NCBI RefSeq assembly: GCF_030849025.1
Contig: NZ_CP118224.1
Coordinates: 232,001-296,000, forward strand
Direction of reading: 5' to 3'
From: Oceanimonas pelagia
GTDB lineage: Bacteria > Pseudomonadota > Gammaproteobacteria > Enterobacterales > Aeromonadaceae
Length of the DNA: 64,000 bases
The number at the start of each line of letters is the position of its first letter. Position 1 is the first letter of the stretch. Below are positions 22,284 to 62,253 of this stretch, piece after piece. The translations under genes were made by a program, and so were the position numbers. The notes below the pieces were generated by a model. That model was not told the DNA's origin. It did not search any database and saw nothing but the letters and a program-made list of their open reading frames with translations.

Positions 22284-23306
22284 ATGCGTGTACTAGGCAT
22301 CGAAACTTCCTGCGATGAAACCGGCATCGCCATCTATGACGACCGGCTCGGTATTCTCTCTCATCAGCTTTACAGCCAGGTCAAACTTCATGCGGACTAC
22401 GGCGGCGTGGTGCCCGAGCTGGCCAGCCGGGATCACATTCGCAAGACGATTCCGCTGATCGAAGCGGCGCTGGCGGAGGCCGGTTGCGGCAAGGACGACA
22501 TCGACGGCGTGGCCTACACCGCCGGCCCCGGGCTGATGGGTGCGTTGCTGGTGGGAGCCACCATAGGTCGCAGCCTGGCCTTTGCCTGGGGCAAGCCGGC
22601 GGTGGCGGTGCACCATATGGAAGGGCACCTGCTGGCGCCCATGCTGGAAGAGCGCATGCCGGCCTTTCCCTTTGTGGCGCTGCTGGTGTCCGGCGGCCAC
22701 ACCCTGCTGGTGCGGGTGGACGGCATCGGCCGCTATGAGATCCTCGGCGAGTCCATCGACGATGCCGCCGGCGAGGCCTTTGACAAAACCGCCAAGCTGA
22801 TGGGGCTCGACTACCCGGGCGGTCCGCGCCTGGCGAAGCTGGCGGAGCGGGGCGTGTCCGGCCGCTTCAAATTCCCCCGGCCCATGACCGACAGACCCGG
22901 GCTGGACTTCAGTTTCTCCGGGCTTAAAACCGCCACCGCCACCACCATTGCCGCCGAAGGCGACGACGACCAGACCCGGGCCGATATTGCCCACGCCTTT
23001 CAGCAGGCGGTGGTCGATACCCTGGCCATCAAGTGCAAACGGGCGCTGGAACAGACCGGACTCAACCGGCTGGTGGTGGCCGGCGGCGTCAGCGCCAATG
23101 TGTCGCTGCGGAAGCAGCTGGAAGCGTTAATGAAAGGGCTGAGCGGTGAGGTGTTTTATCCGCGCAATGAATACTGCACCGACAATGGCGCCATGATCGC
23201 TTTTGCCGGTCTGCAACGGCTCAGGGCCGGTCAGATCGAGCCGCTGCTGGTTCGTGCCCGGCCACGCTGGCCGCTGGATGAGCTACCGCCCGTCGGTGAG
23301 GGGTAA
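22284..23306 (+). CDS. tsaD: tRNA t6A threonylcarbamoyltransferase TsaD
   Basis: A 340-residue enzyme that transfers threonylcarbamoyl to A37 of ANN-decoding tRNAs, working with TsaB, TsaC and Tsa[21 protein letters not shown] is the family N-terminus, fixing the start at 22284 although the frame is open 13 codons earlier. The metal-binding HMEGH motif and ATPase segments VSGGHTLLV and [13 protein letters not shown] are present. The last two codons and the TAA stop are embedded in heptamer repeats shared with the convergent plsY end. No Shine-Dalgarno sequence is visible. Confidence 0.97.
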
Positions 23307-23369
23307 GGAGTGAGGGGGGAGGTGAGAGGCGCGTGGTGGACTCCTCACCCTTCACCCCTCACTCCTCTC
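23296..23369. repeat. Facing heptamer arrays at the tsaD/plsY 3' ends
   Basis: Left array 23296-23330: five consecutive 7-base units of the GTGAGGG/GTAAGGA type on the plus strand. Right array 23342-23369: four units of the same type on the minus strand, in exact 7-base register. Together they form an imperfect inverted repeat with an 11-base centre. The tsaD stop (TAA, 23304-23306) and the plsY stop (TGA on the minus strand, 23359-23361) both lie inside units, so each gene ends within its own array. Confidence 0.85.
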
Positions 23370-23967
23370 GGTTGCGTTTCAACCGGTTGAGGATGGGCGT
23401 TTCCTCGTTGTGATACAGCCGGCTGATGTTGCGGTGGTGGCGAATAATAATAAGGCAGGACAACAGCGCCACCGCCAGGGTGTATTCGGGCTTGATAAAG
23501 TACACGAACAGGGGCGCGAACAGAGCGGTGATCAGCGACGCCAGCGACGAATAGCCGAACAGCCCCAGGCTGACCAGCCAGGTGAGCAGCAGCAGGCCGG
23601 CCATGTCCATGCCCAGGGGCAGCAGGGCACCCAGCGCCGTGGCCACGCCCTTGCCGCCGCGAAAGTGAAAGAACAACGGAAACATGTGCCCCAGGCAGGC
23701 GGCCATGGCGATAAAGGCCAGATAAAGCGGGCTGATATCCAGAAACCAGCCCAGATACACGGGCAGGGTGCCCTTGAGAATATCAAGCAGCAGCACCCAC
23801 ACCGCCGCGCTGCGGTTGCCGGTGCGCAGCACATTGGTGGCGCCGGGGTTGCCGGAGCCATGGGTTCGGGGGTCGGGCAGGCGGTACAGACGCGAGATCA
23901 GCACGGCGCTGGACACCGAGCCTCCCAGATAAGCCAGTATGATCATGAACAGCGTTAGGGCGGTCAT
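23359..23967 (-). CDS. plsY: Acyl-phosphate:glycerol-3-phosphate acyltransferase PlsY
   Basis: A 202-residue inner-membrane enzyme that acylates glycerol-3-phosphate from acyl-phosphate, the first step of phospholipid synthesis. Family motifs are [12 protein letters not shown] (37-48), [18 protein letters not shown] and the terminal [21 protein letters not shown]. About five membrane helices. The C-terminal codons NREE and the stop are made by the heptamer repeat. Divergent from folB, as in many gammaproteobacteria. Confidence 0.96.
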
Positions 23968-24070
23968 CTCGCGGTTTATACCCCGGGTTCAATCCGTTAT
24001 GATTGCGCGCTGATATGGCCTCACGGCCTGCTCGCCAAAGACCGCCCCAGCTTAACAGAAGACGAAGACG

Positions 24071-24439
24071 ATGGATAAAGTGTTTGTGCAAGGCCTTGAG
24101 GTGCTGACCACCATAGGCGTTTACGAGTGGGAAAAAGGTATTCGCCAGAAGATCCGGTTCGATCTGGAAATGGGTTACGACAACCGGCCGGCGGCGGCGG
24201 GGGACGACATTGGCTGCGCCCTGGATTACGCCACTCTGTCGCAGAAGGTCACCACCTATGCCGAGCAGAACCATGTGGAGCTGGTGGAAACCATGGCCGA
24301 GCACATCGCGCGACTGATCCTGACCGAGTTTCCGGTGCTGTCGGTCAAGGTGCGGCTCACCAAGCCCGCCGCCGTGCCCAATGCCGCCGGGGTGGGAGTG
24401 GAAATCGAGCGGTTCGCCAGCCGCAATCTTCAGGGTTAA
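24071..24439 (+). CDS. folB: Dihydroneopterin aldolase FolB
   Basis: A 122-residue folate-pathway enzyme converting 7,8-dihydroneopterin to 6-hydroxymethyl-dihydropterin and glycolaldehyde. It has the family features: IGVYEWEKGIRQKIRFDLEM near the start, CALDYATLSQKV, the catalytic E in LVETMAEHIA and K in VRLTKPAAVPNA. Divergent from plsY, followed 63 bases later by uppP on the same strand. Confidence 0.96.
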   Translation: MDKVFVQGLEVLTTIGVYEWEKGIRQKIRFDLEMGYDNRPAAAGDDIGCALDYATLSQKVTTYAEQNHVELVETMAEHIARLILTEFPVLSVKVRLTKPAAVPNAAGVGVEIERFASRNLQG

Positions 24440-24502
24440 CGTCATTCCCTTGTCATTGAGCGCGGTTATACTGAGTTCATCCTTACTTAAGAGAACGGCC
24501 TC

Positions 24503-25303
24503 ATGGAAGTTCATGCCATTCTGCTGGCCCTCATTCAGGGCCTGACCGAGTTTCTTCCCGTTTCCAGCTCAGCCCATCTGGTGTTGCCCTCCGTGTTGCT
24601 GGGCTGGCCCGATCAGGGCATGGCCTTTGATGTGGCCGTGCATCTGGGCAGCCTGCTGGCGGTGCTGTTCTATTTTCGGCGCGAGGTGGTGACCCTGGCG
24701 CTGAGCTGGTGGGTTTCGCTGCGCGGGGGCGGCCACAGTGCCGAGTCGAAACTGGCCTGGGGCATCATACTGGCCACCGTGCCCGCCTGTGTGGCGGGCT
24801 TGTTGCTGGGGGATGTGATTGGCGTCTACCTGCGCTCGGGCTGGGTCATAGCCACCGCCACCATCGTCTTTGGCCTGCTGCTGTGGTGGGCCGACCGCAT
24901 GGCCCGCCAGTGCAAGAATGAATACCAGGCCGGCTGGCGCGGCGCCCTGCTTCTGGGCTGTGCCCAGGCACTGGCGCTGATCCCCGGCACCTCCCGCAGC
25001 GGCATTACCCTCACCGCCGGCCTGATGCTGGGGCTGACCCGGCAGGCGGCGGCGCGGTTTTCCTTTCTGATGTCGATTCCGGTGATCCTGCTGGCGGGCA
25101 GCCATCAGGCCAGCGGCCTGGTGGGCAGCGGCGCCGTCATGCCCTGGCCGGCGGTCTCTCTGGGGGTGCTGGTGTCGTTCGCCAGCGCCCTGGCCTGCAT
25201 TCATCTGTTCCTGAGCCTGCTCAACCGCCTGGGGGTACTGCCCTTTGTGCTGTACCGGCTGGCCCTGGGCGCGGTATTGATTGGCGTGCTGAGTCAGGCC
25301 TGA
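24503..25303 (+). CDS. uppP: Undecaprenyl-diphosphate phosphatase UppP (BacA)
   Basis: A 266-residue membrane phosphatase that recycles undecaprenyl diphosphate for cell-wall synthesis; overexpression gives bacitracin tolerance in other bacteria. The catalytic (E/Q)-rich region [18 protein letters not shown] (13-30) and PGTSRSGIT segment (about 161-169) are both present, with 7-8 hydrophobic segments. Its last 10 bases overlap the convergent cca gene. Confidence 0.96.
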
Positions 25304-26523
25304 AGCAACTGCACCAGCCGCGCCAGCCTTGCCTCACGGATGGCCTCGCCAATGGCGGGGCCTTTCAGCCCCCGAGCCACAAAGGGCCGGGCGGTAATTT
25401 GCTTCAGCTCCTGCAGCCATCGCCATAACCGTTCCCGCTGGGGATAGGGGCGTTGTTCAAAGCCGGTGCGGCCCTGCAGATCGGCCTGAGCGCACAGCAA
25501 CAATTCGGCAAAGCGATCCGGTTTGCGCCAGGCGTCGGTATGATCCAGCAGCTCCAGCACCGTGTGCGCCTGCTGCGGCGCCGGCTCGGCCAGCCGGTGC
25601 AGGCAGATATGCCAGCGGCTCATCAACACTGCCAGTTCTCTGTGCTCGGTGGGCACCTTCAGCCGTTCACTCAACGTCCGAATAGGCGCAATGCCCAGCT
25701 CGCCGTGGTGGTGGTGGCTGGGCCAGTGTTCGGGCGGCGTGAGTGCCTTGCCCAGATCGTGGCACAGGGCGGCAAAGCGGCAGGGCAGGCTGGCGCCCAG
25801 CTCGGCGGTACGTTTGAGCACCATCATGGTGTGCAGGCCGGTGTCGATCTCCGGGTGCCAGTCCCTGGGACCGGGCACACCGAACAGGGCGTTCACTTCC
25901 GGAAACAGCACCGCCAGGGCGCCGCAGTCGCGCAGCACCTCAAAAAATACCTGGGGGTTGTCACAGGCCAGGGCCTTTTCGGTTTCCTTCCATACCCGCT
26001 CGGGGGTGAGAGCGGTGAGCTCGCCGCCGGCGGCCATGTTCTGCATCAGGGCTTGCGTTTCCCGGGCAAGAGTAAAACCCAGGTGGTGAAAGCGGGCGGC
26101 GAAGCGTGCCACCCGCAGCACCCGCAGCGGATCTTCGGTAAAGGCGCCGGACACATGACGCAGCACCCGGGCCTGAATATCGGCCACACCGCCGTAGGGG
26201 TCGATCAGTTCGCCGGTTTCACTCCGGGCAATGGCATTGATGGTGAGGTCCCGCCGGCGCAGATCTTCTTCCAGGGTCACGTCGGGGCCGAAGTCGCAGA
26301 TAAAGCCGGTGTAACCGCTGCCGGCCTTGCGCTCGGTGCGGGCGAGGGCGTATTCCTCCTTGCTGTGGGGGTGCAGAAACACCGGAAAGTCCCTGCCTAC
26401 CTGGGTATAGCCGAGGTCGAGCAGCTGCTTCGGCGTGGCGCCCACCACCATGTAGTCCCGCTCTGTTACCCTCAGGCCCAGCAGCTCGTCTCTGACCGCG
26501 CCCCCCACCAGATAGATTTTCAA
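25294..26523 (-). CDS. cca: CCA tRNA nucleotidyltransferase (multifunctional)
   Basis: A 409-residue class II enzyme that adds or repairs the 3' CCA of tRNAs. The nucleotidyltransferase head has [16 protein letters not shown], then the metal-binding acidic pair in RDYMVVGA and [13 protein letters not shown]-terminal HD domain ([16 protein letters not shown]) is the phosphatase/phosphodiesterase part typical of the gammaproteobacterial form. The encoded CCA in the tRNA gene of this window suggests its main job is repair. Convergent 10-base overlap with uppP. Confidence 0.96.
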
Positions 26524-26571
26524 CGCCGCACTCCCACATGCAAAACCGCCATTATAACGGCTGAATATGAA

Positions 26572-26591
26572 AAAGGCGCTGCAGCGCCTTT
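26572..26591 (-). terminator. Palindromic hairpin upstream of cca, downstream of putA
   Basis: A perfect 20-base palindrome of AAAGGCGCTG and its complement, with a U-rich tract on the minus strand. It is 160 bases beyond the putA stop and 49 bases before the cca start, so it would end putA transcription after the REP pair. Confidence 0.65.
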
Positions 26592-26640
26592 GAGAATTAT
26601 TTTCATTATTTTACTTGGCGAAAATGTCATTTTCATGTGG

Positions 26641-26669
26641 TCATTCCGGCCCGCGAGCCGGAATCCATT
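26641..26669. repeat. REP-like palindrome, copy 2
   Basis: ATTCCGGC and GCCGGAAT arms with a 6-base loop, flanked by TC and CCATT. It is the reverse-oriented relative of the copy at 12329-12356. Confidence 0.75.
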
Positions 26670-26690
26670 CAGCAGGCGCCGGTGCACCCG

Positions 26691-26720
26691 TGATGAACTC
26701 CGGCCCGTGCCGGAGTGACG
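26691..26720. repeat. REP-like palindrome, copy 3 (variant)
   Basis: ACTCCGGC and GCCGGAGT arms with a CCGT loop, followed by GACGAG. It differs from copy 2 by compensating changes in both arms (T to C on one side, A to G on the other), which argues that the hairpin is conserved. Confidence 0.7.
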
Positions 26721-26753
26721 AGTGCAGCATTGGTTTTGCCCGCTTTCAGCCTT

Positions 26754-29700
26754 TTACCCTTCTCCCAATGACAGCAGGGTGGCATTGCCGCCAATGGCGG
26801 TGGTGTTGTTGGTGATGGTTTTTTCGGTGATGAAGCGGGCCAGGTAGTGCGGGCCGCCGGCCTTGGGACCGGTGCCCGACAGGCCCCGGCCGCCAAAGGG
26901 CTGCACACCCACCATGGCGCCAATCTGATCGCGGTTGATATAGACGTTGCCGGCCTCGATCCGGCTGGCCACCTGGGCGGCAAAGGATTCGTTGCGGCTG
27001 TGCACGCCCAGGGTCAGGCCGTAGCCGGTGGCGTTGATGTCGTCGATCACCTTGTCGATGTCCTTCGCCCTGAAGCGTGCCACGTGCAGTATGGGACCGA
27101 ACTGCTCCTTTTCGAGTTCACCGATGCCGCCGATTTCCAGCGCCGTGGGGCGAATATAAAAGCCGTTGGCGCAGGCCTCGGGCATGGGCGCTTCGGCAAT
27201 GATTCGGTGGCCGGCGGCCTTCATCGCATCCAGGTGTTCCTGCAGCCCGCTCTGAGCATCGGCGTCGATCACCGGGCCCACGTCGGTGGACCAGAGCGCC
27301 GGATCCGCCACGCTCAGCTCCTGCATGGCGCCTTCAAGGAGCTCCAGTACCCGGTCGGCGATGTCGTCCTGCAAATACAGCACCCGCAATGCCGAGCAGC
27401 GCTGGCCGGCGCTCTGAAAGGCGGCGCGCAGCACGTCCCGCACTACCTGCTCGGGCAGGGCGGTGGAGTCCACTATCATGGCGTTCTGACCACCGGTTTC
27501 GGCGATCAGCGGCACAATGGCGCCGTCGCGACTTGCCAGGGTCTGGTTGATCAGCCGGGCGGTGTCGGTGGAGCCGGTAAAGCACACGCCGGCAATGCGC
27601 GGATCTGCCGTGAGTGCGGCACCGACGGAGGCGCCGTCGCCGGGCAGCAGCTGCAGCACGTCACCGGGAATGCCCGCCTCATGAGCCAGGGTCACCGCCC
27701 GGTGGGCGATCAGGCTGGTCTGCTCGGCGGGCTTGGCCAGCACGGTATTGCCGGTAATCAGTGCCGCGCTCACCTGGCCGAGAAAGATCGCCAGGGGAAA
27801 ATTCCACGGGCTGATGCACACAAAGGGGCCGCGGCCCTGTGCCTGCAGCAGATTAAGCTCGCCGGTGTAGCCGGGCAGCTTGACGGGCTCGGCCATCAGC
27901 CGGCGGCCTTCATTGGCGTAATAACGGCAGAAGTCCACCGCCTCACGCACCTCGTCGATGCCGTCCTGCAGCAGCTTGCCCGCCTCTCTGGCACACAGGG
28001 AAATAAACTCGGCGCTGTTTGCTTCAAGCAAATCTGCCAGTTTTTCCAGTGCCGCCGCCCGGGTTTCTACCTGTGTATCCCGCCAGCCTTTAAAGGCGTT
28101 TTCGGCATGGGTAATGGCCTGCTCCACCGTGGTCTTGTCGGCAAATACCACTGTGCCCACCTGCTGAGCCGTGTTTTGCGGGCTGAGCACCGGACGCTGT
28201 TCACCGCTCACCGTCTTGCCGGCCACCAGGGGCGCGGCCTGCCATTGCTTGCCGGCGAGCTGCTCCAGTGTGTGAAACAGGGGCGTGCGGGTGGCTGCAA
28301 TGTTCAGGTTGATGCCGGCAGAGTTTTTGCGATCGGCAAAAATGTTGCGGGGCAGTGGAATTCTGTCGTTGGCCAGGCTGCGGCATTCCCGCAGGCTGGT
28401 TACCGGATGGGTGATCAGGGTATCGATGGGGGTGTCCGGATCCACCAGCTTGTGCACAAAGGAGGTGTTGGCACCATTTTCCAGCAGCCGGCGCACCAGA
28501 TAGGGCAGCAGATCCTTGTGGGCACCCACCGGGGCGTAGATGCGGCAGTGCAGACCGGGGTTTTCCGTCAGCACGGCGTCGTAGAGCTCCTCGCCCATGC
28601 CGTGCAGGCGCTGAAATTCAAAGCGTCGCTCGCCGGCCATATTGAGCACCGCCACCACGGTATGCGCGTTGTGAGTGGCAAACTGCGGATAGATGGCCCC
28701 CTCGGTAGCGGCGCTCAGCAGGTAGCGGGCGCACACCAGATAGGCCACATCGGTGCCCGCCTTGCGGGTATAAACCGGGTAGCCGTCGAGCCCGGCCTGC
28801 TGGCTGTGTTTGATCTCGCTGTCCCAGTAGGCGCCCTTGACCAGCCGCAGCGGAATCTCATCGCCCTGCTCCCGGGCTAGGGCGGTCAGCCAGCACAGCA
28901 CCGGCAACGCCCGTTTGGAATAGGCCTGCACCACCAGCCCCAGGCCGCCCCAGCCCTGGTTGACGTCACTGCGATAGAGCTTTTCAAACAGGTCGAGCGA
29001 CAGCTCCAGCCGATCCATTTCTTCCGCATCGATGGTAATGAACACATCCAGTTTGCGGGCGGTTTGCAGCAGTCCTTCCACGGTGGCATACAGCTCGGAC
29101 AGTACCCGCGCACGGTTGGCTTCTTCGTAACGGGGGTGCAATGCCGACAGCTTGATGGAAATGGACGGACGCGGCACCTCGGGGTGGTTGAGCTTTTCAT
29201 TCCCCACGGCGGCAATGGCGCTGGCGTAATCGGCCCGGTATTTCTCGGCGTCGGCGGCGGTCATGGCCGCCTCGCCCAGCATGTCGTAGGAGTGGGTGTA
29301 GCCCTGCTCCCGGGACTTGCGGCTGGCCTTGAGCGCTTCACCGATGGTGCGCCCCAGCACAAACTGCTTGCCCATGATTTTCATGGCGGCATACATGGCC
29401 GAGCGCACCACCGGCTCGCCCAGACGGTTGATCATGCGGCTCAGCACGTTGGCCGGATTGCCGTCGAGCTTCTTGTCCATGCGCACGATGCGCCCGGTGA
29501 GCATCAGTCCCCAGGTGGAAGCGTTGACCAGGGTGGAGTCGCTCTGGCGAAAATGCCTGGCCCAGTCTGCCCCGGACAGCTTGTCCTTGATCAGTTCGTC
29601 GGCGGTATGACTGTCGGGAATGCGCAGCAGGGCTTCGGCCAGGCACATCAGAATGATGCCTTCCTGGGTGTCCAGGCTGTATTGCTGCAAAAAGGCATCG

Positions 29701-29921: not shown

Positions 29922-30002
29922 GGCGAAAGTCCTGAGGTTGCGAGTGGAAAAACGAAGGCGCCTTGCTGCAATGAATATAGTTCAACCGCCGTGAGCGAGC
30001 CC

Positions 30003-30030: not shown

Positions 30031-30061
30031 GCCCGCTCGTTTTGTTTGTGGGTTTCCGGCT

Positions 30062-31159: not shown

Positions 31160-31204
31160 GGAAAACAAAAAAGTCTGCAGGCACTGTGATGCACCTGCAG
31201 ACTT
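31160..31204 (-). terminator. Terminator of the YgiM-like gene
   Basis: Arms AAGTCTGCAGG (31171-31181) and CCTGCAGACTT (31194-31204) with a 12-base loop, followed on the minus strand by a run of T broken by one G. It directly follows the heptamer array, so the transcript passes through the array and then terminates. Confidence 0.8.
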
Positions 31205-31280
31205 CCTAATCCCTAATCCCTAATCCCTAATCCCTAATCCCTAATCCCTAATCCCTAATCCCTAATCCCTAATCCCTGAT
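31204..31280 (-). repeat. Heptamer array (ATTAGGG) behind the YgiM-like gene
   Basis: Nine perfect CCCTAAT units (31211-31273) with one imperfect unit on each side, 11 in all. Read on the minus strand, as the YgiM-like gene transcript, the unit is ATTAGGG, which contains TAG. The array starts 9 bases after the gene's TAA stop and runs into the terminator. Confidence 0.9.
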
Positions 31281-31289
31281 CCCCGGGGT

Positions 31290-37228: not shown

Positions 37229-40102
37229 ATGTCTGCATTGCCCGCCCCGCTCGCCGCTCAGGCCGACAAGCACTGGTCCCATTTTGCCGAACGCGCCGCC
37301 GAGTTGCTGCCCCGACTCGACCACGAGCGCATTGTACGGCTGAAACGGCTGTTTGCCTGCAGCGACTTTGCCGCCGACAGCCTGTGCCGTCAGCCCGAGC
37401 TGGCGCTGGAACTGGAGGATGAGCGGGATTTGTTCAATGCTGACCGGGCCGGGCGTTATCAGCCCGAGCTGGCGGCCATGCTGGCCGAGGTGAGCGACGA
37501 AGCCACCCTGATGCGTGTGCTGCGCCAGTACCGGCGCCGGGAGCTGCTGCTGATCGCCTGGCGGGAAATGCTGCTGGGGGCCGAGGTGGAAGAAAGCTTT
37601 GTGCATATCTCGGCGCTGGCCGACGCCCTGATCGTGGAGTCTTACCGCTGGCTGTACCGGCGCCAGTGCGGCGAGCTGGGCACGCCCACCGATGCCGAGG
37701 GCAACGCCGTGCCCATGCTGATCCTCGGCATGGGCAAGCTGGGGGGCGGCGAGCTCAACTTTTCATCCGACATCGACCTCATCTTCACCTTTCCTCACAA
37801 CGGCGTGACCAGGGGCGGACGGCGGGAGCTGGCCAACCAGCAGTTTTTTATTCGCCTCGGGCAGAAGCTGGTCAACGCCCTCAACCAGACCACCATAGAC
37901 GGTCAGGTGTACCGGGTGGACATGCGCCTGCGGCCCTTTGGCGAGTCGGGTCCGCTGGCGGTGAGCTTTACCGCCATGGAGGACTATTACCAGCATCATG
38001 GCCGCACCTGGGAGCGTTACGCCATGGTCAAGGCGCGTATTCTCAACGACGAGGGCGAATACACCGCCGAGCTGCGCGCCATGCTCAAGCCCTTTGTGTT
38101 CCGCCGCTACATCGACTTTGGCGTCATCGACTCGCTGCGCCAGATGAAGGCCATGATCGCCGCCGAGGTACGCCGCAAGGGGCTGAGGGACAACATCAAG
38201 CTGGGCGCCGGCGGCATTCGCGAGGTGGAATTTATCGCTCAGGTGTTTCAGCTTATTCGCGGCGGCCGGGAGCCGGCACTGCAGGTGCGCCACCTGCCCG
38301 AGGCGCTGGCGGCGGCCTGTGAGGCGGGGGCGCTGGAGCGGGAGGTGACCGAGCAGCTGCACGCCAGCTACCGTTTTTTGCGCAAGGTGGAAAACTACCT
38401 GCAGGCCTTTGCCGATCAGCAGACCCAGACCCTGCCTCAGGACGAGCTCAATCAGGCCCGGCTGGCCTGGCTCACCGGCCACGACAGCTGGGAGGCCTTT
38501 TATGCCACCCTGCACACCGCCATGAGCCGGGTGCACCGCCAGTTTGAGCTGCTCATTGGCGACAGCACCGAAGCCGAGGAAGAAGGCGTGGCCCAGATCT
38601 GGTCCGATATCTGGCAGACCGACTGGGAACAGGAAAGCGAGCTGACGGCCCTGCTGCAGGAGCAGGGCATGGCCGCCGACAAGGCGGCGCGGCTGGCTCA
38701 TGCCCTGAATACCTTCAAGCAGGAATGCCCGCGCCGGGCCATGGGCCCCCAGGGGCGACAGGCGCTGGAAAAACTGATGCCGGTGCTGCTGGAAAAGGTC
38801 AGCCAGTCCGACACGCCGGGCATTTTGTTTGCCCGGCTGCAGAAGCTGCTGCTGCAAATTGCCACCCGCACCGCCTACCTGCAGCTGCTGGTGGAAAACG
38901 CCGGTGCCCTGACCCAGCTGATTCGCCTGTGCGAGGCCAGCTCGCTGGTGGCCGAACAGCTGGCGCGCTTTCCCATTCTGCTGGACGAGCTGCTGGTGCC
39001 CCAGGTGCTGTACAACCCCATTCCGCTGGACGCCTACAAGGACGAACTGCGCCAGTTTCTGCTGCGGGTGCCGGAAGAGGATGTGGAGCAGCAGATGGAG
39101 GCGCTGCGCCAGTTCAAGCAGATCCAGTTGCTGCGCATCGCCGCCGCCGACATTGCCGGCGCCCTGCCGCTGATGAAAGTGAGCGATCACCTGACCTGGC
39201 TGGCGGAAGCCATTGTGGAAGAGGTGGTCAACCAGGCCTGGGCCCAGATCAGCGCCCGTCACGGCGTGCCGGCCCAGCTGGCGGACAGCGGCGACAAGGG
39301 CTTTGGGGTGGTGGCCTATGGCAAGCTGGGGGGCATAGAGCTGGCCTACAGCTCGGATCTGGATCTGGTGTTTGTACATCAGAGTGGCATCAGCGGCCAG
39401 ACCAACGGCGACAAGCCGCTGGACAGCCGCCAGTTCTACCTGCGTCTGGCCCAGCGCATTATTCACCTGTTCAGCACCCGCACCGCCAGCGGCGTGCTCT
39501 ATGAGCTCGACATGCGTCTGCGCCCCAGCGGCAACTCCGGGTTGATGGTGAGTCCGCTTGACGCCTACGGCCATTACCTGGAGCACGAGGCCTGGACCTG
39601 GGAACACCAGGCCCTGGTGCGCAGCCGCCTGATCGTGGGCGAGCCGGCGCTGGCCGACGAGTTTGCCCGCCTTCGCGCCGGGGTGCTGAGCAAGGCCCGT
39701 AACCGGGATGAGCTGGCCAAAGAGGTGGTGGCCATGCGTGAAAAGATGCGTGAGCACCTGATCAAGGCTGGCCCGGGGGAGTTTCACCTCAAGCAGTCGG
39801 TAGGGGGACTCGCCGACATCGAGTTTCTGACCCAGTACCTGGTGCTGGCCCACAGCGCCCGGCACCCGGAGCTGACCCGCTGGTCCGACAACATGCGCAT
39901 TCTGGAAACCGCGGTGGAAGTGGATCTGCTCGAGGAAGACGAATCCCTGCGCCTGCGCCAGGCCTATTGCGCCATTCGTGACCGGGGCCATCGCCTCAGC
40001 CTCTCGGATCAACCCGGTCGGGTGTCCGACACCGAGCTCACCCAGGAACGGGAGTGGGTGGTGGCCAGCTGGAAAAAATGGCTGCAAGCCAGTGAGGAGT
40101 GA
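37229..40102 (+). CDS. glnE: Bifunctional glutamine synthetase adenylyltransferase/deadenylase GlnE
   Basis: A 957-residue enzyme that adds and removes AMP on glutamine synthetase under control of PII. The N-terminal deadenylase half has LGMGKLGGGELNFSSDIDLIF and the C-terminal adenylylase half has VAYGKLGGIELAYSSDLDLVF, the duplicated nucleotidyltransferase signature with its two aspartates. The frame opens 36 codons earlier, but ATG 37229 after AGAAGGAA matches the family length (946 in E. coli). Its last codons and TGA stop lie in a heptamer array. Confidence 0.97.
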   Translation: MSALPAPLAAQADKHWSHFAERAAELLPRLDHERIVRLKRLFACSDFAADSLCRQPELALELEDERDLFNADRAGRYQPELAAMLAEVSDEATLMRVLRQYRRRELLLIAWREMLLGAEVEESFVHISALADALIVESYRWLYRRQCGELGTPTDAEGNAVPMLILGMGKLGGGELNFSSDIDLIFTFPHNGVTRGGRRELANQQFFIRLGQKLVNALNQTTIDGQVYRVDMRLRPFGESGPLAVSFTAMEDYYQHHGRTWERYAMVKARILNDEGEYTAELRAMLKPFVFRRYIDFGVIDSLRQMKAMIAAEVRRKGLRDNIKLGAGGIREVEFIAQVFQLIRGGREPALQVRHLPEALAAACEAGALEREVTEQLHASYRFLRKVENYLQAFADQQTQTLPQDELNQARLAWLTGHDSWEAFYATLHTAMSRVHRQFELLIGDSTEAEEEGVAQIWSDIWQTDWEQESELTALLQEQGMAADKAARLAHALNTFKQECPRRAMGPQGRQALEKLMPVLLEKVSQSDTPGILFARLQKLLLQIATRTAYLQLLVENAGALTQLIRLCEASSLVAEQLARFPILLDELLVPQVLYNPIPLDAYKDELRQFLLRVPEEDVEQQMEALRQFKQIQLLRIAAADIAGALPLMKVSDHLTWLAEAIVEEVVNQAWAQISARHGVPAQLADSGDKGFGVVAYGKLGGIELAYSSDLDLVFVHQSGISGQTNGDKPLDSRQFYLRLAQRIIHLFSTRTASGVLYELDMRLRPSGNSGLMVSPLDAYGHYLEHEAWTWEHQALVRSRLIVGEPALADEFARLRAGVLSKARNRDELAKEVVAMREKMREHLIKAGPGEFHLKQSVGGLADIEFLTQYLVLAHSARHPELTRWSDNMRILETAVEVDLLEEDESLRLRQAYCAIRDRGHRLSLSDQPGRVSDTELTQEREWVVASWKKWLQASEE

Positions 40103-40171
40103 AGGGTGAGGAGTGAGGAGAAAAACACCGCCTGCTGCAGTGCTCCTCACCCCTCACGCCTGACCCCTCAC
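40092..40171. repeat. Facing heptamer arrays at the glnE/lpxL 3' ends
   Basis: Left array 40092-40119: four GTGAGGA-type units on the plus strand, the glnE TGA (40100-40102) being inside the second unit. Right array 40144-40171: four units of the same type on the minus strand, starting 4 bases after the lpxL stop. All units are in 7-base register within each arm; the centre is 24 bases. Confidence 0.85.
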
Positions 40172-50458: not shown

Positions 50459-50480
50459 AAGGGAAGGCACATGCCTTCCC
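50459..50480 (-). terminator. Hairpin after tolC
   Basis: GGGAAGGCA and TGCCTTCCC arms with a 2-base gap; on the minus strand followed by TTGTATTT. It directly follows three heptamer units behind tolC. Confidence 0.75.
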
Positions 50481-50498
50481 CTACGTCTTGCGTCTCAC
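50478..50498 (-). repeat. Short heptamer array behind tolC
   Basis: On the minus strand three units in register: GTGAGAC, GCAAGAC, GTAGGGG. The first begins one base after the tolC TAA stop. The first unit is identical to the unit found 11 times at 62176-62252. Confidence 0.7.
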
Positions 50499-50499
50499 G

Positions 50500-53953: not shown

Positions 53954-53955
53954 TA

Positions 53956-54525: not shown

Positions 54526-54529
54526 GCCA

Positions 54530-54561: not shown

Positions 54562-54706
54562 ATTGTCATTAATCTGGCCCCGCTGTGAAGCGTGTCGGCG
54601 CAGGTAACCCTGCTGATGCTTTACATGGCGCCATTTGCATCCCGCTTCCCGCAATGGGCTTCGAGTAGTAAGATCCGGCAATAACCCCAGATTACCGAAG
54701 GTCAAC

Positions 54707-56602
54707 ATGACATCGAGTCAATATACTGCCGACGCCATTGAGGTGCTCAATGGCCTGGAGCCGGTGCGACGTCGCCCCGGCATGTATACGGACACCGCCC
54801 GCCCCAACCACCTTGGCCAGGAAGTCATCGACAACAGCGTGGACGAAGCCCTGGCCGGTCATGCCCGCAAGGTGGAAGTGATCCTGCATGAGGATCAGTC
54901 CCTGGAGGTGATCGACGACGGTCGCGGCATGCCGGTGGACATTCATCCGGAAGAGGGCATTTCCGGGGTGGAGCTGATCTTCAGCAAACTGCATGCCGGC
55001 GGCAAGTTTTCCAACAAGAACTATCAGTTCTCCGGCGGCCTGCACGGGGTAGGCATTTCCGTGGTCAATGCCCTCAGTTCGCGGGTGGAGGTCACCGTGC
55101 GCCGGGGCGGCCAGGTGTTTGAAATGGCCTTTGAACATGGCAACAAGGTGAGTGAACTCGCGGTCACCGGCACCTGCGGCCAGCGCAATACCGGCACCCG
55201 GGTGCGGTTCTGGCCCGATGGCAGCTACTTCGACTCACCCAGGTTTTCCGCTTCCCGGCTCAGGCACCTGCTGCGGGCCAAGGCGGTGCTGTGCCCCGGG
55301 CTCACCATTCGCTTTGACGACAAGGCCAATAACGAAACCCTGGAGTGGTGCTATGAGGACGGCCTGAAGGACTATCTGGTGGAAGCGGTCAAGGACTCCC
55401 CCTGCCTGCCGGAAGCGCCCTTTACCGGCAGCTTCTCCGCCGAACACTCGGCGGCGGACTGGGCCCTGTGCTGGCTGCCGGAGGGCGGCGAGACCCTGGG
55501 GGAAAGTTACGTCAACCTGATCCCCACCGCCCAGGGCGGCACCCACGTTAATGGCCTGCGCCAGGGCCTGCTGGATGCCATGCGCGAGTTCTGCGAATTC
55601 CGCAACCTGCTGCCCCGGGGCGTCAAGCTGACCCCGGACGACATCTGGGAGCGCTGTGCCTACATTCTGTCGGTGAAAATTCAGGATCCCCAGTTTGCCG
55701 GCCAGACCAAGGAGCGGCTGTCGTCCCGTCAGTGCGCGGCCTTTGTCTCCGGGGTGGTGAAAGACGCCTTCAGCCTGTGGCTGAACCAGCATATCGAGCT
55801 GGCCGAGCAACTGGCCGATCTGTGCATCAGCAGCGCCCAGCGCCGGCTGCGTCAGGCCAAAAAGGTGGTGCGCAAAAAGGTGACCCAGGGGCCGGCGCTG
55901 CCCGGCAAGCTCACCGACTGTGCCTGCTCCGATCCGCTGCAGGGCGAGCTGTTCCTGGTGGAAGGGGACTCCGCCGGCGGCAGCGCCAAGCAGGCCCGGG
56001 ACCGGGAATTTCAGGCCATCATGCCCCTGCGTGGCAAGATCCTGAACACCTGGGAAGTGGAGTCCGGCCAGGTGCTGGCGTCTCAGGAAGTACACGACAT
56101 TTCGGTGGCCATCGGTCTGGATCCGGACTCGGACGATCTGTCCGGCCTGCGCTACGGCAAAATCTGTATTCTCGCCGACGCCGACTCCGACGGCCTGCAC
56201 ATCGCCACCCTGCTGTGCGCCCTGTTCGTGCGTCACTTCCGCCATCTGGTGGCGGCGGGACACGTGTTCGTGGCCATGCCGCCGCTGTACCGCATCGACG
56301 TGGGCAAGGAAGTGTTCTACGCCCTGGATGAAGACGAGCGCGACGGCGTGCTGGAGCGCATTCGCGCCGAGAAGAAAAAGGGCAAGGTGCAGGTTACCCG
56401 CTTCAAGGGCCTGGGCGAGATGAACCCCAAACAGCTGCGGGAAACCACCCTGGATCCCAATACCCGCCGGCTGGTGCAGCTGACCGTGGACGATGCCGAG
56501 GCCACCGAAAAGCTGATGGACATGCTGCTGGCCAAGAAGCGTGCCGGCGATCGCCGGGAATGGCTGGAAACCAAGGGCAATATGGTCGACCCCCTGGCCT
56601 GA
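54707..56602 (+). CDS. parE: DNA topoisomerase IV subunit B ParE
   Basis: A 631-residue ATPase subunit of topoisomerase IV, which unlinks daughter chromosomes. The GHKL ATP site includes [13 protein letters not shown] and [17 protein letters not shown], with the [19 protein letters not shown] lid. The TOPRIM domain has [21 protein letters not shown] and [15 protein letters not shown], and the end is [18 protein letters not shown]. The ATG 54707 after GAAGG is the family start. parC follows after 13 bases. Confidence 0.97.
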
Positions 56603-56615
56603 GGATAACAATACA

Positions 56616-58862
56616 ATGAGCAATCAAGACTTTACCATGGAAGGGGTGGAGCGCCTGCCGCTGCACACCTTTACCGAGCAGGCCTACCTCAACTACTCCA
56701 TGTACGTGATCATGGACCGGGCACTGCCGCACATCGGCGACGGCCTCAAGCCGGTTCAGCGCCGTATTATTTACGCCATGAGCGAGCTGGGGCTGTCGGC
56801 CCTGGCCAAGCACAAGAAATCCGCCCGTACCGTGGGCGACGTGCTGGGTAAATATCACCCCCACGGCGACTCCGCCTGCTACGAAGCCATGGTGCTGATG
56901 GCCCAGCCCTTCTCCTACCGCTACCCGCTGGTGGACGGCCAGGGCAACTGGGGGGCGCCGGACGATCCCAAGTCGTTCGCCGCCATGCGCTATACCGAGG
57001 CGCGGCTGTCGCGCTTCTCCGAGCTGCTGCTGAGTGAACTGGGCCAGGGCACGGTGGAGTGGATCCCCAACTTCGACGGCACCATGAAGGAGCCGCGCAT
57101 GCTGCCGGCCCGGCTGCCGCACATACTGCTGAACGGCGTCACCGGTATTGCCGTGGGCATGGCCACCGACATTCCGCCCCATAACGTGCGCGAGCTGGCC
57201 AGTGCCTGTGTGCATTTGCTGGACAACCCCAAGGCCACGGTCAGCGAGCTGATGGCCCATGTGGCCGGGCCCGATTACCCGACCCGGGCCGAGATCATCA
57301 CTCCCAGGGCCGATATTCAGAAAATCTACGAAACCGGCAAGGGCAGCATCAGAATGCGCGCCGTCTACCATCAGGAGCAGGGGGACATCGTCATTACCGC
57401 GCTGCCCCATCAGGCCAGCGGCGCCAAAATTCTGGAGCAGATCGCCGGTCAGATGCAGGCCAAGAAACTGCCCATGGTGGCGGACCTGCGCGACGAGTCG
57501 GATCACGAGAACCCGACCCGGCTGGTGATCATTCCCAGATCCAACCGGGTGGACGTGGAGCAGCTGATGCAGCACCTGTTCGCCAGCACGGATCTGGAGA
57601 AGACCTACCGGGTCAACCTCAACATGCTGGGGCTGGATAACCGGCCCCAGGTGAAACCCCTTGATCGCATTCTGTCCGAATGGCTGCAGTTCCGCCGGGA
57701 AACCGTGCGCAACCGGCTGCAGCACCGGCTCGACAAGGTCGAAGCACGGCTGCATATTCTGGCCGGTCTGCTGATCGCTTTTCTCAATATCGATGAAGTG
57801 ATTGAGATCATTCGCACCGAGGATGAGCCCAAGCCGGTGCTGATGGCCCGTTTCGGCCTCACCGAAACCCAGGCCGAGGCCATTCTCGAGCTGAAACTGC
57901 GCCACCTGGCCAAACTGGAAGAAATGAAGATCCGCGGCGAGCAGGACGAGCTGGCCGCCGAGCGGGACAAGCTGGCGCAGATTCTGGGATCCGAACGCCG
58001 GCTCAACACCCTGCTGAAAAAGGAAATTCTGGCGGACGCGGAGAAATACGGCGACGAGCGCCGCTCGCCGCTGGTGGAACGGGAAGAGGCGAAGGCCCTG
58101 AGCGAAAAGGAGCTGGTGCCGAGCGAGCCGGTGACCATAGTGCTGTCGGAAAAAGGCTGGATCCGCTCCGCCAAGGGCCATGAGGTGGACGGCGCCGGAC
58201 TCAGCTACAAGGCCGGCGACGGTTTTCTCGATGCCGCCCCCGGGCGCAGCAACCAGATGGCGGTGTTCCTGTCGAACACCGGCCGGGCCTATGGCCTGGA
58301 CGCCCACAGTCTGCCCTCGGCCCGGGGCCAGGGCGAGCCGCTCACCGGCCGCTGCAGCCTGAGCCCGGGGGAGCAGGCCCGCTTTGTGCTGGCCGGCGAG
58401 GAAGACCGGCTCTACCTGCTGGCCTCCGACGCCGGTTACGGCTTTGTCTGCCGCTACGGCGACATGGTCAGCCGCAACAAGAACGGCAAGGCGCTGCTGA
58501 CGGTGCCCGCCGGTGGCGAGGTGCTGAAACCGGTGCCGGTGGCGCAGGTGGACAGCGAGCTGTGCCTGGTGGTGACCAACGAGGGCCGCATGCTGCTGTT
58601 TCCGCTCAAAGACCTGCCCATGCTGGCCAAGGGCAAGGGCAACAAGCTCATCGGCATTACCGGTGCCAAGGTGCAGGCCCGGGAAGACTTTATCAAGCAG
58701 CTGGCGGTGGTGCCGATCGGTGCCAGCGTGACCCTGCACGCCGGCAAGCGCAAGCTGACCCTCAAGCCCGCCGATCTGGCCCACTACCAGGGCGAGCGCG
58801 GCCGCCGCGGCGCCCTGCTGCCCCGCGGCTTGCAACGGGTGGACAGCCTGGAAATTGAATAA
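56616..58862 (+). CDS. parC: DNA topoisomerase IV subunit A ParC
   Basis: A 748-residue DNA-cleaving subunit. The winged-helix domain holds the catalytic Y126 ([14 protein letters not shown]). In the quinolone-resistance region ([12 protein letters not shown]) S86 and E90 are the sensitive-type residues (S80 and E84 in E. coli), so no target resistance is indicated. The C-terminal beta-pinwheel spans about 500-748. Translationally close to parE (13 bases). A heptamer array begins 5 bases after the stop codon. Confidence 0.97.
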
Positions 58863-58867
58863 AAAAC

Positions 58868-58929
58868 GTGAGGGGTGAGGCGAAAGGAGTGAGGTGATTC
58901 CCCCTCACTCCTCACCTTTTACCCCTCAC
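58868..58929. repeat. Facing heptamer arrays at the parC/mutT 3' ends
   Basis: Left array 58868-58895: four GTGAGG-type units on the plus strand just behind the parC stop. Right array 58902-58929: four units of the same type on the minus strand, with the mutT stop (TAA, 58919-58921) inside a GTAAAAG unit and the last two mutT codons in the next. The centre is only 6 bases, giving a long hairpin potential. Confidence 0.85.
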
Positions 58930-59332
58930 ATGCACTCTGCAGCTTTGCCACTATCGGGCGGTTGGCGGCGGGAAAGTCGTAGTGGTGCAGCTCGCTTACC
59001 GGCACCCAGCGGCTGGGCTGGCCCTCGCGGCCGTGGGGCTCGCCGGTAAAGGCGGTGACCCGGTGAATGTCGAGGGTCACTCGCTTGTCGCCGTAGTCGT
59101 GGTCAATGCGCATAAAGGGCGCGCAGGCGGTCACGGCAATGCCGATTTCCTCTTCCAGCTCCCGGGCCAGGGCCTGGGCCACGGTTTCGCCGGCCTCCAC
59201 CTTGCCGCCGGGAAACTCCCATTTAAAGGCCTGGTGCTGGCTTTCGCCCCGGCGGCAGATAAAAATCTCGCCGGCGGCGTTTTCAATCACGCCCACCGCC
59301 ACCAGTACGGATGTTTTAACCTCAGTACTCAT
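58919..59332 (-). CDS. mutT: 8-oxo-dGTP diphosphatase MutT
   Basis: A 137-residue Nudix enzyme that hydrolyses 8-oxo-dGTP to prevent A-to-C mutations. The Nudix box is [24 protein letters not shown] (about 42-65). It begins [22 protein letters not shown] as MutT does. Its start overlaps the yacG stop by 11 bases in a zapD-yacG-mutT run. The final codons (GEG) and stop are inside a heptamer array. Confidence 0.95.
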
Positions 59333-59513
59333 TTTCGCCGTCCTGCTCCGGCAGCCAGGCGGGGTCGCCGGGAATGCGTTTTTCCTCGTCGGCCCATTCC
59401 CCCAGATCGATCAGCTGGCAGCGCTTGCTGCAAAAAGGACGAAAGGGGCTTTGTTCACCCCATTCCACGGACGCGCCGCAGGTGGGGCAGGGGACGGTAG
59501 TGATGTTGCTCAT
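59322..59513 (-). CDS. yacG: DNA gyrase inhibitor YacG
   Basis: A 63-residue zinc-ribbon protein that binds GyrB and inhibits gyrase in E. coli. The four zinc ligands are C9, C12, C28 and C32 (CPTC and CSKRC), followed by the usual [16 protein letters not shown] segment. Overlaps zapD by 4 bases and mutT by 11 bases. Confidence 0.95.
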
Positions 59514-60244
59514 TTGATGTTCGCCAGTTCAAAGTCGATGTTGCCGATATCGGTGTTGCCCACCGGCATAAAACGAATGGTAAAGCGGTACTTGTTGCCG
59601 CTGACCACCGGATAGACCGGCTGCTCGCCGGGCAGGCGCAGCCGGATCATCTCGGTGTGCTCGGCGCTGTCCTGAAAGAAGCCGGCATTGGCCCGCTGAG
59701 TGGTGAACTGGCTGCTCTCCCGCCACAGGGTCAGCAGCAGGCTCAGGCCCTGTTGCAGCAGACCGAGTTGCTCCACCCAGGCGTTCAGATCCTGCTGCTG
59801 GCGCTCTGCCGGCTGGTGCAGCCAGTGGTGCAGCTGGGGCACGTCAAAGGCACAAAGGCCGCCGGGAATGGCAAAGCGGCTGCGCACCGCCGACAGCAGC
59901 CTGTCTTCGCGCAGGGCCTGGCCCAGGCGGGCGCTGCGGGGCAGCTGCTGGCTGATGGACTCGAGTTTCTGGGAAAACTGCTCGAGGGCGGCGGCGTCCA
60001 CTCCGGGTACTCGGGCCCAGGCTTCCAGCCTGCTGTTCTGTTGCTCCAGATCCTTGGCCAGATCGGTGCGCAGATCGCAGCGTTCCAGCAACTCCAGGGC
60101 GTCGAGCAGGGCCTTGAACAGGGCGGTGGCCTGGCCGGGAGCATTCAGCCCCCGGCACTGGTCAATCTGTTTCAGCAGCTCGCTCAGCCGCAGGTAGTTG
60201 CGGCATTTTTCGTTGAGGGGAAATTCGTAAACCAGTGATGACAT
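59510..60244 (-). CDS. zapD: Cell-division protein ZapD
   Basis: A 244-residue FtsZ-associated protein that bundles FtsZ filaments at the division site. The family start is [27 protein letters not shown] at ATG 60244; the frame opens 18 codons earlier. The middle is helical and the C-terminus has [25 protein letters not shown]. Upstream gene of yacG in a minus-strand run. Confidence 0.94.
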
Positions 60245-60294
60245 AACACGTTTGGCCTGTGGTTCGAGGCGATAATGGGGCCAGTGTACCCGCT

Positions 60295-61440
60295 TCACTC
60301 CTCAAGAAACAAATCGAGCAACCGGTTGAGAAAGCGCCGGCCCAGGGGCGTAACCTGCCAGTGTGTACCGGTATCCTGCAGTAATTCCAGCCGCTGTGCC
60401 TCGGCCAGCGGGGCCTGCAACTGCGCCAGGGGCTGACCGGTGAGGGCGGTGAATTCCTGCTCGGGAATGGGCTCGAACAGCCGCAGCCGGTTCATGAAGT
60501 ATTCCAGCGACAGATCCTGTGGTGCTATGTGCCAGTGCTGATCCAGATAAGGCCGTGACGGCTCCAGATAGCCCCTGGGGTGCTTGACCTTGACGGTGCG
60601 CAGAATGCGCCCCTGCAACGGCAGGGTGATTTTGCCGTGGGCACCGCAGCCAATGCCCAGATAGTCGCCAAAGCGCCAGTAATTGAGGTTGTGTCTGGCC
60701 TCGAAGCCGGGCCTGGCGTAGGCGGAGACTTCGTATTGCCGATAACCGTGGGCCAGCAGCAGCTCGTGACCGCGCTCATAAATCTCCGCCAGGGTGTCGT
60801 CTTCCGGCAGCGCCGGTGGGCGCGAGGCAAAGGGGGTGTTGGGCTCGATGGTGAGCTGGTACCAGGACAGATGCGGCGGCGCCAGGGCCAGGGCCTGCTC
60901 GAGGTCAAACAGGGCGTCTTCCGGACGCTGCCCGGGCAGGCCGTGCATCAGATCGATGTTGAAGCTGTTGAGCCCCACGCCGGCGGCTTCTTTGGCGGCA
61001 AAGCGGGCCTGCTCGGGGTCGTGAATGCGGCCCAGGCCTTCGAGCTTGTCGGCCTGAAAGCTTTGCACGCCGATGGAAATGCGGTTGATGCCGGCTTTTT
61101 TAAAGCCGCCAAAGCGGCCCGCTTCCACCGTGCCCGGGTTGGCCTCCAGGGTGATTTCAATGTCGTGCTCAAAGGGCAGGCGCTCGCGCACCCCGGTCAG
61201 CAGCCGGCCGATGGCCTCCGGGCTCAGCAGGCTGGGGGTGCCGCCGCCGATAAAAATGCTGTGCAGTTTGCGGCCCTGGGCAAAATGCAGATCGGCATCC
61301 AGATCCGCCAGCAGGGCATCCACGTATTCCCGCTCGGGAATGTCGGCCTTCAGGGCATGGGAATTGAAGTCGCAGTAGGGGCACTTCTGCACGCACCAGG
61401 GAATGTGGATATACAGGCTCAGGGGCGGCAGCGTCAGCAT
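60295..61440 (-). CDS. hemW: Radical SAM heme chaperone HemW
   Basis: A 381-residue protein related to coproporphyrinogen dehydrogenase HemN but acting as a heme-trafficking chaperone. The iron-sulfur CxxxCxxC is C16/C20/C23 (WCVQKCPYCDF), followed by FIGGGTPSLLS, EANPGT and SIGVQSFQ. The HemN C-terminal domain is present. It overlaps rdgB by 1 base, as is common. Confidence 0.95.
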   Translation of the reverse strand: MLTLPPLSLYIHIPWCVQKCPYCDFNSHALKADIPEREYVDALLADLDADLHFAQGRKLHSIFIGGGTPSLLSPEAIGRLLTGVRERLPFEHDIEITLEANPGTVEAGRFGGFKKAGINRISIGVQSFQADKLEGLGRIHDPEQARFAAKEAAGVGLNSFNIDLMHGLPGQRPEDALFDLEQALALAPPHLSWYQLTIEPNTPFASRPPALPEDDTLAEIYERGHELLLAHGYRQYEVSAYARPGFEARHNLNYWRFGDYLGIGCGAHGKITLPLQGRILRTVKVKHPRGYLEPSRPYLDQHWHIAPQDLSLEYFMNRLRLFEPIPEQEFTALTGQPLAQLQAPLAEAQRLELLQDTGTHWQVTPLGRRFLNRLLDLFLEE

Positions 61441-62039
61441 CAGATTTCTTCTCGCAGCAGCTGCTGCAACTGGTGCAGGGCGCTGGCGCGGTGGCTGTGG
61501 CGGTTTTTCTCGGCCGGGGTCAGCTCGGCGGAAGTCTTGCCCGCTTCCGGCACCAGGAACACGGGGTCGTAGCCAAAGCCGTGTTCACCCCGGGGGGCGG
61601 TGGTGATCTCGCCCTGCCAGCGGCCGGTGCAGATCAGCGGCGTGGGATCATCGGCGTGGCGCATGTACACCAGCACGCACCAGAAGGTGGCCTGGCGCTC
61701 GCCGGCGGGCACGTCCTGCATCTGCTCCAGCAGCAGTTCGAGGTTTTGTTGATCGCTGGCATCCGGGCCGGCAAAGCGGGCGGAGTAAACACCGGGACGG
61801 CCGCCGAGGGCGCTCACCGCCAGGCCGGAGTCGTCGGCAATGGCGGGCAGGCCGGTTACTTGTGCGGCATGGCGGGCCTTGATAATGGCGTTTTCCACGA
61901 AGGTGGTGCCGGTTTCGTCGGCGTCGGTCACGCTCAGCTCGGTCTGGGGCACCACGCTCATGCCCAGTCCGCCCAGCAGGCTTTGCAGTTCGGCTACTTT
62001 TTTGGCGTTGCCGGAGGCCAGTACGATTTTTTGGGTCAC
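61440..62039 (-). CDS. rdgB: Non-canonical purine NTP pyrophosphatase RdgB
   Basis: A 199-residue ITPase/XTPase removing deaminated purine nucleotides. [58 protein letters not shown] and [11 protein letters not shown] are the family motifs. I chose GTG 62039, which has AGGAG 6 bases before it and the family N-terminus; the ATG at 62072 lacks a ribosome site. The gene follows a 211-base region of heptamer repeats after the DUF4426 gene. Confidence 0.94.
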
Positions 62040-62089
62040 CTTTCGCTCCTGTGGATTACCGCGTGCGGGCATGATACCACCACAGAAAC

Positions 62090-62253
62090 GTAAGAGGTAA
62101 AGGGGAGCCGTAAGAGGAAAAATGAAATGGAAATGTAAGACGTAAAAGGGAAGACGTAAGACGAGGAGATCCATTACGTCTCACGTCTCACGTCTCACGT
62201 CTCACGTCTCACGTCTCACGTCTCACGTCTCACGTCTCACGTCTCACGTCTCA
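62090..62253. repeat. Heptamer arrays between rdgB and the DUF4426 gene
   Basis: Right array 62176-62252: 11 perfect tandem ACGTCTC units, read as GTGAGAC on the minus strand behind the DUF4426 gene, whose TGA stop (62251-62253) is at the array edge. Left array 62090-62162: GTAAGAG, GTAAAGG, GTAAGAC and related units on the plus strand, degenerate in the middle and out of register by one base. Around 62163-62175 the arrays face each other and can pair as a hairpin. Confidence 0.9.

Follow-up and report, generated by a model that had tools for sequence, protein, structure and literature searches.

Seven-base tandem repeats united by period and not by sequence at gene ends of Oceanimonas pelagia and its congeners

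Results

A stretch of 64,000 nucleotides (nt) from Oceanimonas pelagia (contig NZ_CP118224.1, positions 232,001 to 296,000 of the forward strand; hereafter the window, numbered from its first letter) carries tandem arrays of seven-base units at the 3' ends of nine genes. Here, we found that heptads of many unit sequences lie at or over stop codons within the genus, most often between convergent genes, and that what unites the 3'-end elements of the genus is a seven-base period rather than a shared sequence. An earlier note on the window had placed such arrays at six loci, joined them in one family under the consensus RTDAGRV, and credited them with stopping translation in all frames. All six loci hold the arrays described, and Pfam backs the identities of the nine genes: tsaD, plsY, an SH3-domain (ygiM-like) gene, glnE, a lipid A acyltransferase gene (lpxL), an OEP/tolC-type gene, the gene for a type II topoisomerase A subunit (parC), a NUDIX gene (mutT), and a DUF4426 gene. 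RTDAGRV matches of two units, counted with overlap, numbered 25 in the window; 100 first-order Markov sequences gave a mean of 0.12 and never more than 1. For three units, the corresponding counts were 18 and 0. The source genome is one contig of 3.59 Mb, and its TsaD protein is 91% identical to named matches from Oceanisphaera, Oceanimonas, and Zobellella and 82 to 83% identical to those from Aeromonas, which places the organism in Aeromonadaceae, close to the three marine genera.

Since selecting arrays by RTDAGRV is circular for stop content, lag-7 repeats of any sequence were counted in 1.64 Mb from 16 congeneric genomes. Half of this DNA was selected for its synteny with the window, and the other half comes from 40 stretches at round coordinates (the random stretches). 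Period 7 accounted for 23 intergenic loci, one of them a run of N, whereas no other period from 4 to 16 exceeded 6; in the random stretches alone, the corresponding figures were 8 and at most 3. At a looser threshold there were 46 period-7 loci, of which 43 were intergenic. As shown by the distances to called genes, 36 of the 43 have a stop codon and one has a start codon no farther than 30 nt away (9 and 1, respectively, of 15 loci in the random stretches), which bears out the earlier placement of the arrays at gene ends rather than at starts. Heptads were present at 26 of 133 convergent, 15 of 499 co-directional, and 1 of 156 divergent junctions, and the convergent bias was also found in the random stretches (5/57 versus 5/305 for all others; P = 0.011).

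Comparison of orthologous gene ends revealed that the unit words are replaced between congeners. Among 14 genomes compared 3' of the ygiM-like gene, ATTAGGG units occur in three, GTAAGGC in one, and GTGAGGC in one, while seven of the other nine have a canonical terminator only. The 3' end of glnE, compared in 13 genomes, bears GTGAGGR, GGGACTA, or GAAGCTA units, and weaker AGCRCCN-like or GTAAGC-like runs were seen by eye in some genomes. Unit variants therefore do interconvert at orthologous loci of relatives. These data indicated that the period of seven, and not the sequence, is the constant feature of the arrays. The proposed single family holds in place and behavior, including orthologous replacement, but RTDAGRV does not define it, as units such as ACTGGGG and AAGCCGG fall outside the consensus.

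Further period-7 families were noticed at gene ends of the congeners, with GTAAGCC, GAAGCTA, AAGCCGG, AGCGCCC, and AGCTATC units (L265 in G019, L249 to L251 in G020, L258 to L263 in G005 and G010, and others), and these often adjoin canonical terminators.

At four of the six window loci (23296, 40092, 58868, and 62090), a second, inverted heptad arm is present, giving a purine arm, a loop, and a pyrimidine arm. All nine genes read into the purine-rich strand at their 3' ends, as had been noted. A two-armed element, however, looks alike from either side, so the shared strand says little beyond the inverted repeat, and the common orientation, although real, is mainly a by-product of the inverted arms. 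In the 1.64-Mb set, an inverted partner matching at least 11 of 14 bases was found for 14 of the 37 arrays located within 60 nt of a stop (gene-end arrays), compared with 2.4 expected from random gene ends. Across loci, the two arms share their unit type (P = 5 × 10−5; L146, an array within a long gene, was left out of the arm-matching test). With an inverted partner in a good part of the arrays, transcripts could form a single long stem whichever side they come from.

Folding was then predicted for 56 own-genome array regions, comprising the window and 48 stretches around listed array places (81 places plus the first 100 of 126 in a second list; beyond ~2.99 Mb, two-unit arrays are included where three units are present). 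The longest unbranched predicted stem reached at least 14 pairs in 44 of the 56, with the stem of several of these lying in adjacent coding or insertion sequence (IS) DNA (e.g., L123, L127, L139, L146, L156, and L163). The folding z score had a median of −3.0 and was below −3 in 28 of the 56. The array regions thus share with rho-independent terminators a stable stem, rich in G+C, 3' of the stop codon. Single arms also occur: the array at 31204 runs into an ordinary terminator, and that in L168 faces away from the preceding gene. One two-armed GTGAGGG element (L149:2983-3084) stands between divergent genes, the sole such place among the listed own-genome regions.

Heptads tend to stand where other genomes have canonical terminators, as observed in the own genome and in the syntenic blocks. 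We compared 43 gene ends, each found in at least six genomes. A canonical terminator was present in some genome at 12 of the 13 gene ends that carry a heptad somewhere but at 14 of the 30 others (P = 0.006), and the figure for the former was 11 of 13 when terminators were counted solely where heptads were absent (P = 0.04). Conversely, heptads shun gene ends that never have a terminator (1/17 such genes versus 12/26). Sorted by gene and genome, the 13 genes yielded 9 cells with both features, 50 with a heptad only, 38 with a terminator only, and 79 with neither (odds ratio 0.37, P = 0.018; 0.28 when stratified; the cells are not independent). In own-genome convergent gaps of 30 to 350 bases, terminators were found in 5 of 25 with heptads versus 7 of 9 without (P = 0.004), and at convergent junctions of the 1.64-Mb set, in 10 of 26 versus 71 of 99 (P = 0.0025).

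An IS3-family element (NF033516) of ~1.25 kb, one copy of which lies at L163:3030-4290 in the own genome, adjoins the arrays. A whole-genome search with its left end (up to three mismatches) identified seven own-genome copies, and all seven had a heptad array no more than 60 bases from that end, one of these arrays being of GGGGAAT units; an eighth copy, which is truncated, bears an array at the opposite end. For a flank test, 30 of 37 matches were fetched from six genomes including the own, with a lag-7 identity of at least 10/14 as the criterion. Lag-7 DNA was found in the flanks of 24 of the 30 copies, the exceptions being L327, L331, L339, L343, L348, and L349, whereas lags of 5, 6, 8, 9, and 10 reached 0 to 2. 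The level at ordinary gene ends in three of the six genomes was 14/148, 15/136, and 23/127, and at convergent ends of the same three it was 11/56, 11/42, and 12/38. The flanking arrays include GTGAGAC, GTGAGGG, ATTAGGG, GGGGAAT, ACCTACT, ACTCAAC, and CCGCTGA units, and in L344 the element is inserted within a CCTAATC array. In the open-access literature, we found no report of an IS that targets period-7 arrays of different sequences.

The stop triplets behind the all-frame stop idea were examined in the 37 gene-end arrays, with expectations from permuting the letters of the units. RTDAGRV compels TAA, TGA, or TTAG in each unit, so the earlier statement that a stop occurs in nearly every unit holds for units picked by that consensus, but only by construction. 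Among the arrays found regardless of unit, 27 of 37 have a sense stop triplet against 15.2 expected (P = 9 × 10−6, ancestry ignored), or 15 of 21 distinct units against 9.3, and the other 10 arrays have none (ACTGGGG, AAGCCGG, CCGGCTT, AAGCTGG, AGCGCCC, and AGCTATC units). Antisense stop triplets were found in 9 of the 37 arrays, where 4.7 were expected, an excess of the same proportion. The strand contrast is therefore largely a matter of purine-rich composition, and selection for stops on the sense strand was rejected. Arrays that overlap a stop codon have a sense stop in 13 of 16 cases and those that do not in 14 of 21. In the window, five of the nine genes (tsaD, plsY, glnE, mutT, and DUF4426) have their stop codon inside the array, and four (ygiM-like, lpxL, tolC, and parC) have it just ahead. 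Of 23 congeners, 5 have a tsaD frame that enters the array and stops inside it, with Gly-Glu-Gly or Gly-Glu-Ala as the last residues. A permissive role is plausible from these sequences, in which an array with a stop-bearing unit can creep into a gene tail. An all-frame stop function, by contrast, is not supported, given the antisense excess, the 10 stop-free arrays, and the four genes that stop earlier.

The arrays extend beyond the genus. Three GTRAGRV units in a row were detected in 20 of 23 genus members and in none of 38 genomes of 28 other genera sampled from the family and order, which at first backed a genus-private sequence; this idea was overturned by a class-wide search, in which 26 of 369 gammaproteobacterial genomes (including the own) in 24 of 272 genera were positive. 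In the own genome, the GTRAGRV scan gave 59 matches versus 7 for the reversed pattern; the reversed control in a first own-genome scan was uninformative because the reversed unit recurs within the same arrays. The class-wide spread is patchy and dense in places (170 and 99 matches). Six such non-genus genomes also carry several period-7 unit families. The placement found in the genus was not recovered there: a stop codon is no more than 30 nt away at 13 of 47 period-7 loci and a start equally close at 7, and several loci fall inside called genes. This count covers 20 stretches of the six genomes, chosen around array places, with gene calls made from little training DNA. GTGAGGR and GTAAGGC units were dense but patchy in unrelated gammaproteobacterial genera (G392, G386, G296, G300, G144, G100, and G187).

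The window loci differ in their build. Three two-armed elements, assigned to neither strand, lie between convergent genes: a GTGAGGG-type element at 23296..23369 between tsaD and plsY, both of whose stops fall within the arms; one at 40092..40171 between glnE and the lpxL-type gene, containing the glnE stop; and one at 58868..58929 between parC and the NUDIX gene, containing the mutT stop. At 62176..62254 on the minus strand, a GTGAGAC array of 11 units with 100% matches holds the DUF4426 stop in its last unit, and its partner, a degenerate GTAAGAC-type arm on the plus strand (62090..62175), is located upstream of a Ham1/rdgB-type gene. Since this gene starts at ~62039, downstream of the whole element (62090-62254), the element stands between co-directional genes. 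The remaining two arrays, at 31204 and 50478, run into terminators with a hairpin and a T-run. The former is a single-arm ATTAGGG array of 11 units (31204..31283, minus strand) 3' of the ygiM-like gene, followed by a canonical hairpin and T-run at 31165..31203 on the same strand (AAGTCTGCAGG..CCTGCAGACTTTTTTG), identified by reading the sequence. The latter consists of two heptads, GTGAGAC GCAAGAC, directly 3' of the tolC-type stop, which run into a hairpin and T-rich terminator (50468..50499, minus strand); this locus (50478-50498) is weak by itself, and the congener G002 has four GTGAGAC units at the same place. A scan of the window with Rfam gave no match above the gathering score at the arrays, and its sole match above that score was a tRNA gene (17295-17368, minus strand).

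Discussion

Taken together, one family is recognizable by place and behavior, while RTDAGRV as its definition, orientation as an independent feature, and the all-frame stop role do not stand. It is quite possible, although short of probable, that these are slippage-grown period-7 elements that are tolerated, and perhaps used as stem-loops, at the ends of transcription units; on the sequence evidence, a 3'-end stem-loop role appears to be the likeliest function, slightly ahead of neutral slippage. Arrays would arise and lengthen by slippage and would be tolerated at gene tails, where a stop-bearing unit would end a reading frame entering the array. The two-armed stem could act as an mRNA 3'-end structure, either as an exonuclease barrier or as an aid to termination, and would work in both directions at convergent pairs, where it may share or take over the work of the canonical terminator.

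Several results weigh against a stem-loop role. Array-free convergent junctions fold similarly (z below −3 in 3 of 9), and placement is looser outside the genus. Within a unit type, arms were not matched locus by locus (P = 0.20); the own partner ranked first in 2 of 55 cases and fifth or better in 9 of 55, and the notion of individually co-evolved arms was dropped. In ortholog alignments, pair changes on both sides were few (0/17 for tsaD, 2/20 for DUF4426, 2/31 for parC, and 2/20 for glnE), and covariation lends weak support to paired arms. The own-genome contrast in terminators has a P value of 0.06 once the window is excluded. Exclusion of terminators by heptads was not seen in the random stretches (terminators at 4 of 5 convergent junctions with heptads and 33 of 47 without), nor in spacers of 100 to 350 bases in the 1.64-Mb set (8/11 and 34/46). 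Moreover, a U-tract, scored as at least five T in eight bases, rarely follows the 44 stems (1 on the printed strand, 6 on the other), and a heptad stem plus U-tract was rejected as the general form. The exception is the mutT side of the parC/mutT element (58868..58929), where GTTTTTTATTC comes after the stem on the minus strand.

Under neutral slippage, heptad microsatellites would expand in weakly constrained DNA and survive past stops, inverted arms would come from template switching in hairpins, and the whole would be functionless. We regard this as possible rather than probable. The free turnover of unit words between congeners, the single arms and arrays next to intact terminators, the arms that are not individually matched within a unit type, and the looser placement in other genera all agree with it, and polymerase slippage was proposed for the heptamer excess of bacteria in work cited by PMC4692102. 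It does not account for the excess of inverted partners (14/37 versus 2.4), the scarcity of heptads at gene ends that never have a terminator, and the IS element that tracks heptads. That the arrays serve as all-frame translation stops is improbable: the sense-stop excess and the five window genes and five tsaD orthologs that stop inside an array are what it would predict, but the relative excess is equal on the antisense strand, 10 of 37 arrays lack a sense stop, overlap with a stop codon does not raise the share much (13/16 versus 14/21), and, according to a survey, fail-safe stops are not selected for in eubacteria (PMC6764699).

Two further explanations are very unlikely. A DNA-level structure of the purine-rich strand, a G-quadruplex or R-loop, would fit the at least five purines of seven in 29 of 37 sense units and the quadruplexes that Xanthomonas heptamers form in vitro (PMC4692102); a quadruplex motif (four GGG tracts, loops of 1 to 7), however, is present in 9 of the 56 listed own-genome array regions, GGG is absent from GTGAGAC, GTAAGGC, AGCGCCC, and AAGCTGG units, and the quadruplex was discarded as a common principle. 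The arrays could also be palindromes like the repetitive extragenic palindromic (REP) sequences, spread by a REP-associated tyrosine transposase (RAYT, Y1_Tnp), since, like REPs, they are many-copy extragenic hairpins and serve as IS targets. Y1_Tnp matches were found in 18 of 23 genus members (all but G007, G009, G012, G017, and G022); the five without have at most four GTRAGRV-triplet matches each, and 10 of the 18 have at least 50, a weak association with a one-sided chance of ~0.04. Yet 8 of the 18 have 0 to 19 matches, and RAYT-borne REPs are not favored, as the array-rich own genome has one partial Y1_Tnp match with a stop inside and no element sequence is common to the loci, whose unit words differ.

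Among known systems, the closest are the GGGAATC heptamers of Xanthomonas, which overlap stop codons or are close to them, in many cases as inverted pairs, and for which no function was found (Rehm et al. 2015, PMC4692102). The earlier statement that no description was known thus fails in part. The arrays share with these, and with GGGGA(C/T)T of Nostoc, the period of 7, the variable copy number, and the intergenic place on the sense strand at stops (within 50 bp or over them), as well as rarity between divergent genes and inverted pairs, 70 and 75 of which were counted in two Xanthomonas genomes (PMC4692102). Xanthomonas differs in having one G-rich unit, read as quadruplex forming, with 16% between convergent genes (PMC4692102). 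Here, instead of a GGGNATC quadruplex unit, many words were found (one array of GGGGAAT among them), several without GGG, with a stronger convergent bias, orthologous replacement, and an adjoining IS. The same report places these heptamers in Xanthomonas and not in other gammaproteobacteria and notes a heptamer excess in bacteria without a function (PMC4692102).

The TAACTGA direct repeats of Beggiatoaceae and others are likewise intergenic heptamers with stops in three frames (MacGregor 2015, PMC4679880); they lie mostly just upstream of starts, have a fixed sequence, and are direct bar one exception (PMC4679880), and the congeneric period-7 loci match them in neither unit nor place. REP sequences and bacterial interspersed mosaic elements are extragenic, hairpin forming, and targeted by IS3-family elements (Tobes and Pareja 2006, PMC1525189), to which the period-7 flanks of 24 of 30 IS copies correspond. 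Unlike in these, no palindrome sequence is conserved between loci or genomes, the arms are tandem heptads of many words, and no intact RAYT was found in the own genome. Ribosome termination structures are stable mRNA structures directly 3' of stops (Chemla et al. 2020, PMC7518266); they are not repeat built, and the accessible text describes no sequence periodicity. The four-fold heptanucleotide elements of Geobacter metallireducens are tandem and many-copy but lie within as well as between genes, and neither inverted arms nor a gene-end rule appears in the accessible text (PMC2700814). Like rho-independent terminators, the arrays here offer a strong stem soon after the stop at the ends of transcription units, both kinds being found at orthologous ends; unlike them, they mostly lack a U-tract, and their arms are tandem repeats and their stems long. 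The STRR heptanucleotides of cyanobacteria are tandem and present in many copies, with no inverted arms or gene-end rule noticed. Searching the open-access literature for the unit strings themselves returned unrelated matches only.

A further idea, which we consider doubtful, is that the element class is defined by periodicity alone, with words freely replaced, and that the IS3-family transposase recognizes this class irrespective of sequence. If so, the seven-base period, or its multi-register hairpin, would be a signal read by both a cell process and a transposon. In this genus, a given gene end may carry various heptad words, a canonical terminator, or neither, and a transposon adjoins the heptads. 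Two old questions thereby become testable, namely, why seven and whether heptamer repeats shape mRNA 3' ends.

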